DNA of 64,000 bases from NCBI RefSeq assembly GCF_014863585.1, contig NZ_CP062253.1:2754501-2818500 (forward strand), given 5' to 3'. Source of the DNA: Pseudomonas gozinkensis (lineage in GTDB: Bacteria > Pseudomonadota > Gammaproteobacteria > Pseudomonadales > Pseudomonadaceae). Made by a program: the position numbers and the translations under genes. Of this stretch, positions 6,588 through 30,570 are shown one piece after another (the stretch's first letter is position 1; every line of letters starts with the position of its first letter). The notes below the pieces were generated by a model. That model saw only the letters and a list, made by a program, of their open reading frames with translations. It was not told the origin of the DNA and ran no database searches.

Positions 6588-9500
6588 ATGCTCGACAACA
6601 CTTCCTTGCGTGGGACGAATCCCGTGCAGCCCGACGTTTGCTCCTTGAAACCGTTCGATGCAGACCTTTGTGTGCACGGTCTGTTTGAAGCGCAGGTGCT
6701 GCGCAACCCCGAGGCCATCGCCGCGCGCTGGCGGCAGGAGGCGCTCAGTTATCGTGACCTGAACACCCGTGCCAACCGGTTGGCCCATCACCTGCGCAAG
6801 CTCGGGGTCGGGCCGGACGTGCGGGTCGGGCTGTGTCTGGAGCGTTCGCTGGAGATGTTGGTCGGCGTGCTCGCGGTGCTCAAGGCCGGCGGCGCCTATG
6901 TGCCGCTGGACCCGGCTTATCCGCAGGCGCGGCTGGCGCACATGCTGGCCGACAGCGCACCGCCGGTGGTGCTGACCCACGGCCAGACGCGCGATGTTTT
7001 GCGGGCGACGCTCGAACAGTCGGCGACTGCACCCGCGATATTGGATCTGGCCGACGCCTCTGATTGGGCTTCGCTCCCGGCAGATAACCCCGATCCTCAC
7101 GCAATCGGCCTGACATCCCGACACCTGGCTTACGTGATCTACACCTCCGGCTCCACCGGCACCCCGAAAGGCGTGATGGTCGAGCATCGCGGACTGGTCG
7201 CCGTGAGCGCCGACTGGGCGCAGCTCTATGGATTGGGCGAGCCAGTCAATCACCTGCAAATGGCCGGTTTTTCCTTCGACGTGTTCAGTGCCGACCTGAT
7301 CCGTGCGCTGGGTTTTGGCGGCACGCTGGTGCTGTGCCCACGGGACACCCTGATGGACCCGCCGGCCCTGTATCGCCTGATGCGCGACGCGCATATCGGT
7401 TTTGCCGACTTCGTGCCGGCGCTGCTCAATCCGCTGCTGGCGTGGGTCGAAGAGACCGGCCACGATCTGTCGTTCCTGCGCACCGTAGTCTGCGGCTCGG
7501 ACATCTGGACCGCCCACAGTGCGCGGCAATTGCGCAGGCTCTGCGGTGAGCGGGTGCAGATTGTCCAGGCCTATGGCGTGACTGAAGCGAGCATCGACAG
7601 TACTTGTTTCGAGTTCACCGAAGGCAGCCAGATCGACGCAATAGCGCCCATCGGCCGGGCACTGCCCAATACCCGGATTTACCTGTTCGACGCCGATGGC
7701 GCACCGGTTGCCGAGGGCGTCGCGGGTGAGCTTTACATCGGTGGCGTCGGCGTGGCGCGCGGTTATCTGAACCTGCCGCAACTGACCGCCGAGCGTTTCA
7801 TCGACAGCCCGTTCGTGGCGGGCGAACGCCTTTACCGCACCGGTGACCTGGCGCGGTATCGGGCCGACGGGCAGCTGGAATTCCTCGGTCGCAATGATTC
7901 ACAGGCCAAGTTGCGCGGCCTGCGTCTGGAACTGGGGGAAATCGAAGCCCGGCTGGCGGACATCCCCGGTGTGCGGGAAAGCGTGGTGTTGCTACGTCAG
8001 GACAGTCCCGGTGAGCCACGTCTGGTCGCCTACTACTGCGAAAAACCAGACACACCCTTGAGCCCGCGCGCACTGCGCGAACAGCTGCAAATCAGCCTGC
8101 CGGACTACATGGTGCCGAGCGCCTTCATGCGTCTCGATGCGTTGCCGCTGACCGCCAACGGCAAGGTCGATCGGCCAAATCTGCCGGCGCCGGACGTCGA
8201 GGCGTTTGATCAACAGGAATACCTGGCACCCCAAGGTCCGCTGGAAACCGCGCTCGCCGCGATCTGGGTCGATGTGCTCGGCGTCAAACGGGTCGGACGT
8301 CAGGATCAGTTCTTTGCCCTTGGCGGTCACTCGCTGCTGGTGATGCGCGTGCTGGCGCAGGTTCGTCACACGCTGGGGCTGGAAGTCGCGCCTTCGACGT
8401 TGTTTGCAGCGCCGGTTCTGGCAGAGTTCGCCGAACGGCTGCAAGCCAGTCAGGCCGCGGCTCGCCCAGCTATCACGGCCTTTGAACGGACGGGCGCGCA
8501 AACGTTGTCGTCTGCCCAGCAGCGCCTGTGGTTTCTGGCACAAATGGAGGGTGGCAACGCGGCGTATCACATGCCGCTGAACTTGCGTTTGCGCGGTTCG
8601 CTGGACGTACCGGCACTCGAACGCAGCTTCAATCAACTGGTGGCGCGCCATGCTGCGCTGCGCACGACGTTCGTCGCCGTTGAAGGGGAAGGGCGCCAAC
8701 TGGTTTCGCCGCCGGCGCACAGCATCCGGCTGATGGTGACTGACGTGCAGGGGGGCTATGCGCAAGAACGCCTGACCCGCTTGATCGACGAGGAGGGCGC
8801 CCGACCGTTCGACCTGAGCCGGGGCCCGCTGATGCGGGTCAGCCTGATGCGGCTGGCAGCGGATGACCATGTGTTGCTGCTGACCCAGCATCACATCATC
8901 TCCGATGGCTGGTCGATGGGCGTGCTCACCCGCGAGCTGGGTCAGCTGTACGCAGCGGCGTTGCAGGATCGCGACGATCCGCTACCGCCCTTGCCAGTGC
9001 AGTACGTGGATTACGCCGTGTGGCAAAAGCAATGGCTGTCCGGCGACGTGCTGGAGCAGCAGAGCCGTTACTGGCGCGAAACCCTCACGGGCGCGCCGGT
9101 ATTGCTGGAATTGCCGACCGATCACAAGCGCCCGCCCGTGCAGGACTACCTCGGGGGCTTTGTCCCATTGGTCTTCGACGAAGCTTTGACCGCGCGATTG
9201 AAAGCTCTGGGCATGCAGCAAGGCACCACGCTGTTCATGAATCTGTTGGCCGGTTTTTCGCTGCTGTTGTCGCGCCTGTCGGGGCAGAACGATGTGGTGA
9301 TCGGCGTGCCATCGGCCAACCGCCCGCAGCAGGAACTGGAAGGGCTGATCGGTTTCTTCGTCAACACCCTCGCGCTGCGCATGACTCAGTCCGGCACGCC
9401 GTCGGTGGCGCAATGGCTGCAACAGGCGCGGCGGGTGGCGCTGGAGGCTCAGGAGCATCAGCACCTGCCGTTCGAGCAAGTGGTGGAATTGCTCAACCCG

Positions 9501-29700: not shown

Positions 29701-30570
29701 ATGGATCAGTTGGCACTCAAGGCAATCGAGCGCATCGCCGCCGAACGGCGCGCGCCGTATCAGCACATCACGGTCGAGCGAATCACGCCGATCATCGGCG
29801 CCGAGATCGGCGGCGTCGATCTCTCGCAACCGCTGAGCGACGAGCAGCTCGCGGAAATCCGCCGGGCCTTTCTGGAAAACCACGTGGTGGTGTTCCGCGA
29901 TCAGCATCTGACGGTGGACGAGCACAAGGCTTTTGGCCGGCTGTTCGGTGAGCTGCGGGCGCTGCCGGTGGAGGACATCGACGGCGATGACCCGGAACTG
30001 GTGGTGATCCGCGCCAATGCGCAATCGCGCTACGTGGCCGGCGAAACCTGGCACACCGACGGCACTGCCGATCTGGCGCCGTCCATGGGCTCGATGCTGT
30101 ACGTCAAGGAGACTCCGGCCATCGGCACCGGTGGCGATACGTTGTTCGCCAACATGCACCTGGCGCTGGAAATGCTGTCGCCGACGATGCAGCAGTTTCT
30201 CTGCGAATTGACCGCGATCCACGACGGCGCGATTCCGTGGAAGGGTTATGAGGCGCCGGCCAACCTGCCGAAAACCGAACACCCGGTGGTAGTTCGCCAC
30301 CCGGAAACCGGGCGCCAATCACTGTTCGTCAATTCCGGGTTTACGTCGCACATCGTTCAGTTGTCCGGCGGTGAAAGTCAGGTGCTGCTGAACATGCTGT
30401 TCGACCTGGTCGCCCGCGAACCGGTCCTCAGCTGCCGCGTGCGCTGGGCGCCGAATAGCCTGGTGTTCTGGGACAACCGTTGCACCCAGCACCATGCGGT
30501 CTGGGATTATTTCCCGCATTCGCGGTATGGCGAGCGGGTGACGATTCTGGGGACGCAGCCGAAGGCGTGA
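29701..30570 (+). CDS. TauD/TfdA-family Fe(II)/2-oxoglutarate dioxygenase
   Basis: 289 residues. The iron-binding facial triad is visible as WHTDGT (His-x-Asp) and the distal His in CTQHHAVWDY; the 2-oxoglutarate-binding Arg is likely in RYGERVTI. The N-terminal segment with IIGAEIGGVDLSQPL is typical of the family. These enzymes hydroxylate, halogenate or desaturate small molecules using O2 and 2-oxoglutarate. It lies 15 bp after the MbtH-like gene in the operon, so it is probably a tailoring enzyme. Hydroxylation of a proline-derived ring or another residue is the leading guess, because both assembly lines appear to load Pro. Confidence 0.9.
   Translation: MDQLALKAIERIAAERRAPYQHITVERITPIIGAEIGGVDLSQPLSDEQLAEIRRAFLENHVVVFRDQHLTVDEHKAFGRLFGELRALPVEDIDGDDPELVVIRANAQSRYVAGETWHTDGTADLAPSMGSMLYVKETPAIGTGGDTLFANMHLALEMLSPTMQQFLCELTAIHDGAIPWKGYEAPANLPKTEHPVVVRHPETGRQSLFVNSGFTSHIVQLSGGESQVLLNMLFDLVAREPVLSCRVRWAPNSLVFWDNRCTQHHAVWDYFPHSRYGERVTILGTQPKA

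Follow-up and report, generated by a model that had tools for sequence, protein, structure and literature searches.

We analysed a 64,000-nucleotide stretch of Pseudomonas gozinkensis DNA (contig NZ_CP062253.1, positions 2,754,501 to 2,818,500; hereafter the window) and found that its region 6588-32877 is, judged by its genes, the orthologue of the Pseudomonas entomophila pip cluster. With a probability of about 0.93, this region directs the synthesis of detoxin/rimosamide-like (DRL) depsipeptides of the pseudotetraivprolide type as a pip cluster, and we infer that the P. gozinkensis strain very probably produces, or is able to produce, an anti-antibiotic depsipeptide that is already known. 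The pip cluster of P. entomophila L48 (pipA-H) was reported on 12 December 2025 (Angew. Chem.; PMC12828459) to produce pseudotetraivprolide, a detoxin/rimosamide-like "anti-antibiotic". According to that report, two nonribosomal peptide synthetase (NRPS) genes supply a tetrapeptide and the hybrid NRPS/polyketide synthase (PKS) PipC supplies an elongated dipeptide, with tailoring by PipE, a dioxygenase, by PipD, PipF, and PipG, which act in acetylation, and by PipH, an N-acetyltransferase. Our own evidence covers the genes present, the order of their domains, the specificity codes and catalytic residues, and co-occurrence; the product, the ester step, the role of FabD, and the order of tailoring are taken from PMC12828459 for the P. 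entomophila orthologue.

An earlier note on this DNA had described two apparently separate assembly lines with two thioesterases (TEs) and knew of no characterised Pseudomonas cluster with this layout. The two-line observation is correct and is not new: the cluster, the product family, and the ester-forming TE are already published, and the statement about the layout is outdated by the December 2025 paper (PMC12828459). The note had named a close MIBiG match of known product as speaking against novelty, and the P. entomophila pip cluster, found through the literature, is a close match whose product is known. The chemistry proposed in the note was mostly right; it did not list that the PKS module of its protein 3 lacks an acyltransferase (AT).

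Correspondence to the P. entomophila cluster

Relatives were collected by a PipC scan with one genome per species, which gave 29 loci, all in Pseudomonas; counts over 28 loci exclude L036, a 4.2 kb fragment. One of these loci, P. entomophila COR5 (L024), serves as a stand-in for L48, which is not among them. The genes pipA-H have the same order and orientation in the window and in COR5, and the matches span 98-100% of the protein length except for PipD (77%). The best-segment protein identities between the two are 75% for PipA, 78% for PipB, 69% for PipC, 57% for PipD, 86% for PipE, 68% for PipF, 77% for PipG, and 69% for PipH. The three synthetases are 92-97% identical in the closest loci, which belong to P. 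koreensis, P. sputi, P. paraglycinae, P. pharyngis, and strain B20; on these values the DNA probably stems from the P. koreensis group.

The specificity codes of the adenylation (A) domains, read as the first nine positions with Lys assumed at the tenth, are DVADVGAID, DVQFIAQVV, and DLYNMSLIW in modules 1-3 and DAWVFGVVI, DAFFLGVTF, and DVQFIAHVV in modules 4-6. We take them to stand for Arg, Pro, Cys, Met (by orthology), Ile/Val, and Pro, partly after the P. entomophila paper. At four of the six modules (1, 3, 4, and 5) the codes are identical to those of COR5, and the two Pro codes differ conservatively, one by I/V and the other by F/Y plus I/V. Furthermore, PipF, read from a GTG start at 31315, has S18, D208, and H211 in the numbering published for PipF, and the numbers of S46, C47, H51, T238, and E296 of PipG equal those discussed for PipG (PMC12828459).

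Domain architecture of the synthetases

Pfam analysis revealed three A domains, two condensation (C)-type domains, three thiolation (T) domains, and a nitroreductase-type (Ox) domain in PipA, with a first module of A-T and a cyclisation (Cy) motif, DxxxxDxxS, in the second C-type domain. PipB reads TubC_N-C-A-T-TE. PipC reads A-T-C-A-T-KS-KR-T-TE, where KS and KR are the ketosynthase and ketoreductase of a PKS module without an AT. The earlier note had seen an A-T start without an N-terminal C domain on proteins 1 and 3 (PipA and PipC) and a TubC-like docking domain on protein 2 (PipB), and Pfam bears out both. Intact GxSxG motifs at the ends of PipB and PipC, also seen before, hold S1210 (in GLSFG) and S2865 (in GWSFG), respectively; the Asp and His partners given in Table 1 were assigned by motif. 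By sequence, the PipB TE is closest in the PDB to 4zxh, an NRPS entered there under the name tyrocidine synthetase 3.

Protection of Bacillus cereus against blasticidin S is a trait of DRL clusters. Other features of this family were found here: the hybrid A(Val/Ile)-T-C-A(Pro)-T-KS-KR-T-TE, the TauD-like dioxygenase (PF02668), and an AT-less PKS module in a genome that has FabD and no dedicated trans-acting AT. The domain orders A-T-C-A-T-Cy-A-T-Ox of PipA and C-A-T-TE of PipB are those of the pip subfamily, for which the published order was taken from the legend and text of PMC12828459.

The transfer of the chain from protein 1 to protein 2, proposed in the earlier note, is supported by the TubC_N domain together with an acidic tail at the end of PipA, through which PipA probably hands its chain to PipB. 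The tail, DMEE(F/I/V)E(V/I/L), closes the PipA frames of 25 of 27 relatives, and in the two exceptions (L015 and L030) the pipA frame is truncated or interrupted.

Proposed pathway

PipA and PipB would together assemble Arg-Pro-thiazole-Met, in which Cy cyclises the Cys and Ox then oxidises it. PipC would build Ile/Val-Pro, add a single malonate unit that FabD loads in trans, and reduce the extended chain by KR to a β-hydroxy acid. The PipB TE would then attach the tetrapeptide to the hydroxyl group of the chain still bound to PipC, after which the PipC TE would free the joined depsipeptide. PipH would acetylate the N-terminus, PipE would hydroxylate the C-terminal proline-derived ring, and PipD, PipF, and PipG would O-acetylate the hydroxyl set by PipE.

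The ester-forming role of the PipB TE in the window is predicted from its triad and from reports on the orthologue. In P. entomophila, the PipB TE is reported to esterify the Arg-Pro-thiazole-Met peptide onto the Ile/Val-Pro-C2 chain held on PipC, and its deletion abolished the full-length products while ivprolide and pseudotetratide accumulated; the paper credits in vivo and in vitro chitinimide work (PMC12828459). The Val/Ile-Pro-C2 acid that the earlier note had assigned to protein 3 is likewise reported for the orthologue (PMC12828459).

FabD is described as acting in trans in P. entomophila (PMC12828459). A search for a dedicated trans-AT with PF00698 across the whole P. gozinkensis genome found only two proteins, both named by their neighbours: FabD, flanked by a plsX-like and a fabG-like gene, and an MdcH-like protein among malonate decarboxylase and transporter genes. 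Since these are the only two PF00698 proteins, the genome agrees with FabD working in trans.

Co-occurrence of the two lines in the genus

Among 398 Pseudomonas genomes, our own included, the KS-to-acyl carrier protein stretch of PipC was found in 30 at 64-100% identity over at least 1039 residues; 49 other genomes over the threshold had shorter or weaker PipC matches (47% identity or less). The PipB TE was also found in 30 of the 398 (in G034 as two adjoining pieces), and the two sets consist of the same 30 genomes. The spacing from the PipB TE to the PipC KS was 5.9-6.0 kb in the 19 cases computed. By best-segment identity, the PipB TE is better conserved than the PipC TE in all 28 loci, L017 having a partial PipB TE. 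PipD was detected in 18 of the 30 genomes that carry pip, and elsewhere among the 398 only two weak matches with stop codons were found.

In the assembly of P. amygdali ICMP 3918 (L028), pipC is interrupted, and in that of P. bananamidigenes (L030) both pipA and pipC are, through decay or sequencing error.

Alternative readings

Several observations weigh against assigning the window to this product. The assignment for the P. gozinkensis strain is drawn from its genes, and Met at the fourth module depends on orthology. PipC is the least conserved of the synthetases, the PipD identity falls to 50% in the whole alignment, and an mbtH gene is present here while none was found at the COR5 locus. 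P. cerasi (L015) lacks the last part of PipA and the greater part of PipB, yet it keeps PipE and the PipB TE (85%, 12441-13175) beside an open PipC, so a pip cluster can persist without a complete tetrapeptide line. Finally, the serine number given for the PipB-TE mutant in PMC12828459 does not fit PipB; the adjacent TE deletion is independent of that number. The residue is given there as Ser-2856, while PipB here has 1370 residues and its TE serine is 1210 (1211 in COR5). Ser-2856 is nearer to the TE serine of PipC, which is 2865 here and about 2849 in COR5 when counted from the window's start, and it may be a numbering slip.

The differences in PipC, PipD, and mbtH could mean that the same depsipeptide scaffold ends in an altered product, for example with another fourth residue or other tailoring. 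We consider this unlikely, given the equal codes at modules 1, 3, 4, and 5, the 68-86% identity of PipE-H, and the conservation of the PipF and PipG residues named above.

A scenario of two unlinked metabolites, in which the PipB TE releases a thiazole tetrapeptide and the PipC TE a Val/Ile-Pro-hydroxy acid, is much less probable still. Triads are present in both TEs, the free halves pseudotetratide and ivprolide were detected in P. entomophila (PMC12828459), and PA and PC are observed in pseudovibriamide biosynthesis, a related system (PMC12911931). However, the free halves are treated in PMC12828459 as products of premature release or hydrolysis, and the loss of full-length products without the PipB TE, the shared occurrence of the PipB TE and the PipC module in 30 of 30 genomes, and the stronger conservation of the PipB TE all argue against separate release. 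On the published PipB-TE results and the co-occurrence, we reject two metabolites as the main outcome. The earlier note had left open whether the halves are joined, for example by an ester, or released as two metabolites; because the PipB TE joins both chains in the published orthologue, the ester stands and the one-product-or-two question is settled from published work. A single collinear line by ordinary condensation, from PipB to PipC or from PipC to PipA, has the gene order A-B-C and its 4-bp overlaps in its favour and can be practically dismissed, since PipC has no N-terminal C domain to take up the chain, nor does PipA, PipB ends in a TE, TubC_N is confined to PipB, and the orthologue is reported to form an ester linkage.

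Proposed graded erosion of the N-terminal condensation domain of PipA

The start of pipA was readable in 27 loci. In one of them, L018 of P. fuscovaginae (extended with L070), PipA carries an entire C domain, including HHIICDG, preceded by the leader MFDKTSLR, and upstream of this pipA lies a further gene that reads as an NRPS. In 10 of the 27, roughly the second half of the C domain is all that remains (Pfam-confirmed for L012 and L025); eight of these start at a YWR/YWL point, and L035 and L037 do not. The other 16, like the window, have no N-terminal C domain, and among the aligned members of this class L013 and L019 retain a short remnant of the C-A linker. A leader resembling MLDNTSLRG was matched by a strict motif in 13 of the 27 loci.

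As expected for a pip cluster without a functional C domain at the start of PipA, the window has pipH. The gene was also found at 27 of 28 relatives' loci and is missing from L018 alone, whose best genome-wide match is 29% identical. Support for a link between pipH and the C domain is weak because it comes from this single exception.

A FastTree phylogeny of PipC with 27 tips was rooted on L018 by choice; it omits L028 and L030 (short PipC frames) and the fragment L036, and L017 has no pipA. The half-domain loci fall in three places on the tree, with clades lacking the domain in between. One half-domain ancestor followed by at least three complete losses fits the L018-rooted tree, from which we infer this order. 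A broader proposal, to which we give even odds, is that the Pseudomonas pip line descends in shortened form from a longer assembly line, with the half domain as the ancestral state, lost completely at least three times, and with the stand-alone acetyltransferase PipH taking over the capping of the exposed N-terminus. A truncated Cstarter domain in P. viridiflava is mentioned in PMC12828459. If the proposal is true, the graded loss is a small natural record of the shortening of an NRPS front end, useful to NRPS engineers.

Gene content, limits, and flanks of the cluster

The coding sequences overlap by 4, 4, 4, and 8 bp up to the MbtH-like gene (15596/15599, 19705/19708, 28797/28800, and 29479/29486), as the earlier note had stated, and Pfam confirms the MbtH family. 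The TauD dioxygenase gene begins 15 bp further on. The interval 6588-30570 proposed before holds pipA to pipE, but it misses the three minus-strand genes pipF, pipG, and pipH, which take the cluster 2.3 kb further to 32877. Among the 28 relatives' loci, pipD, pipF, and pipG are all present at 10 and all absent from 18, and mbtH was found at 19.

Table 1 Features of the pip cluster in the window.
Feature	Position	Strand	Description and basis
pipA orthologue	6588..15599	+	3003 aa; A(Arg)-T-C-A(Pro)-T-Cy-A(Cys)-T-Ox; Pfam, A-domain codes, COR5 match
pipA start	6588-6660		leader only, one of the starts showing graded erosion; others in L012-L014, L018/L070, L019, L021, L025-L027, L031, L034, L035, L037
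PipA C-terminal acidic tail	15576..15596	+	DMEEFEV; probable docking motif for PipB TubC_N
pipB orthologue	15596..19708	+	1370 aa; TubC_N-C-A(Met by orthology)-T-TE; Pfam, COR5 match
PipB thioesterase	18971..19705	+	S1210/D1237/H1341; ester-forming by orthology
pipC orthologue	19705..28800	+	3031 aa; A(Ile/Val)-T-C-A(Pro)-T-KS-KR-T-TE, no AT; Pfam, motifs, COR5 match
PipC ketosynthase	24649..25725	+	motifs ACGSS, HGTGT, GHLGAA; Pfam
PipC thioesterase	28015..28797	+	S2865/D2892/H3008; final release by orthology
pipD orthologue	28797..29486	+	all-helical, no Pfam or NCBIfam match; PipDFG O-acetylation complex by orthology
mbtH-like gene	29479..29685	+	PF03621, 65.9 bits
pipE orthologue	29701..30570	+	TauD-family dioxygenase, PF02668; HxD motif at H118; proline ring hydroxylation by orthology
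pipF orthologue	30626..31315	-	GDSH motif (SGNH-type); no Pfam match; GTG start at 31315
pipG orthologue	31284..32324	-	GSCFA domain, PF08885; C47/H51
pipH orthologue	32362..32877	-	GNAT N-acetyltransferase, PF13302; conserved cluster ends here

AlphaFold2 models of PipD have a mean predicted local distance difference test score of 83.2 for the best of five and 64.6 for the worst. None of 251 Foldseek matches in the PDB reached E ≤ 0.001, and for this reason no function is drawn from the model.

An efflux-like MFS/HlyD pair at 32939-35613, with a putative export role, follows pipH in the window and in the close relative G352. As a conserved part of the cluster the pair was rejected, tblastn having found it at only one of the 29 named loci, L018, and weakly there. 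In the downstream flanks of three close relatives, G352 carries the two genes next to pip (93% and 96%), and no such pair was found downstream of pip in G252 and G202; a close HlyD homologue occurs in one (G002) of the 23 other genomes in the relatives search. These genes look like a flank common to some close relatives and not like part of the cluster. A LuxR-type regulator with an autoinducer-binding domain, a candidate for a link to pip regulation, lies at 2557-3276, about 3.3 kb upstream of pipA. When an empty site was sought in the pip-less genome G010, the alignment was limited to the OsmC/sigma stretch and yielded no insertion junction.

Comparison with related systems

The window is alike to the P. 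entomophila L48 cluster in pipA-H, the domain order with its AT-less PKS module and two TEs, the missing C domain at the start of PipA, and the residue numbers of PipF and PipG (PMC12828459). It differs from the cluster of COR5 in the mbtH gene between pipD and pipE.

In the bacLIFE study (PMC10920822), an NRPS-PKS of P. syringae and P. viridiflava, whose product is not identified there, was predicted to make Arg-Pro-Cys-X-X-Pro, and a mutant of P. syringae pv. phaseolicola caused fewer necrotic lesions on bean. A third BiG-SCAPE group of this NRPS-PKS is placed in environmental species. The system is like pip in the residue order given in the text, the rimosamide-like match, and the KS, KR, and TE domains, while in the figure legend the residue named last is Cys. 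The residue order and the distribution, as described there, suggest that it belongs to the pip family, which would unite the bean-symptom NRPS-PKS of 2024 and the pip cluster of 2025 in a single family. The terms bacLIFE and phaseolicola do not occur in the main text of PMC12828459. Rimosamide-like predictions among Pseudomonas clusters appear in PMC8704066, and our literature search found no paper pairing detoxin with Pseudomonas koreensis.

Outside the genus, the chm cluster for chitinimides in Chitinimonas koreensis (PMC8302735) shares the hybrid NRPS/PKS and tauD core of the DRL family, and an ester-forming TE is attributed to it (Niu et al. 2024, cited via PMC12828459). It differs in having eight upstream modules and a ureido linkage, in contrast to the four modules with a thiazole in pip. 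The ppp cluster for pseudovibriamides in Pseudovibrio (PMC12911931) shares the two TEs and the proposed ester that joins a peptide to a PKS-extended unit, TE ester joining being proposed there for pseudovibriamide B; it differs in its heptapeptide and in other accessory genes (pppE, F, H-K). The Streptomyces detoxin and rimosamide clusters (McClure 2016, via citing papers) share the signature pair of a hybrid NRPS/PKS and a TauD protein, whereas their peptide arm is shorter (up to three A domains; PMC8302735) and their hosts are Gram-positive.

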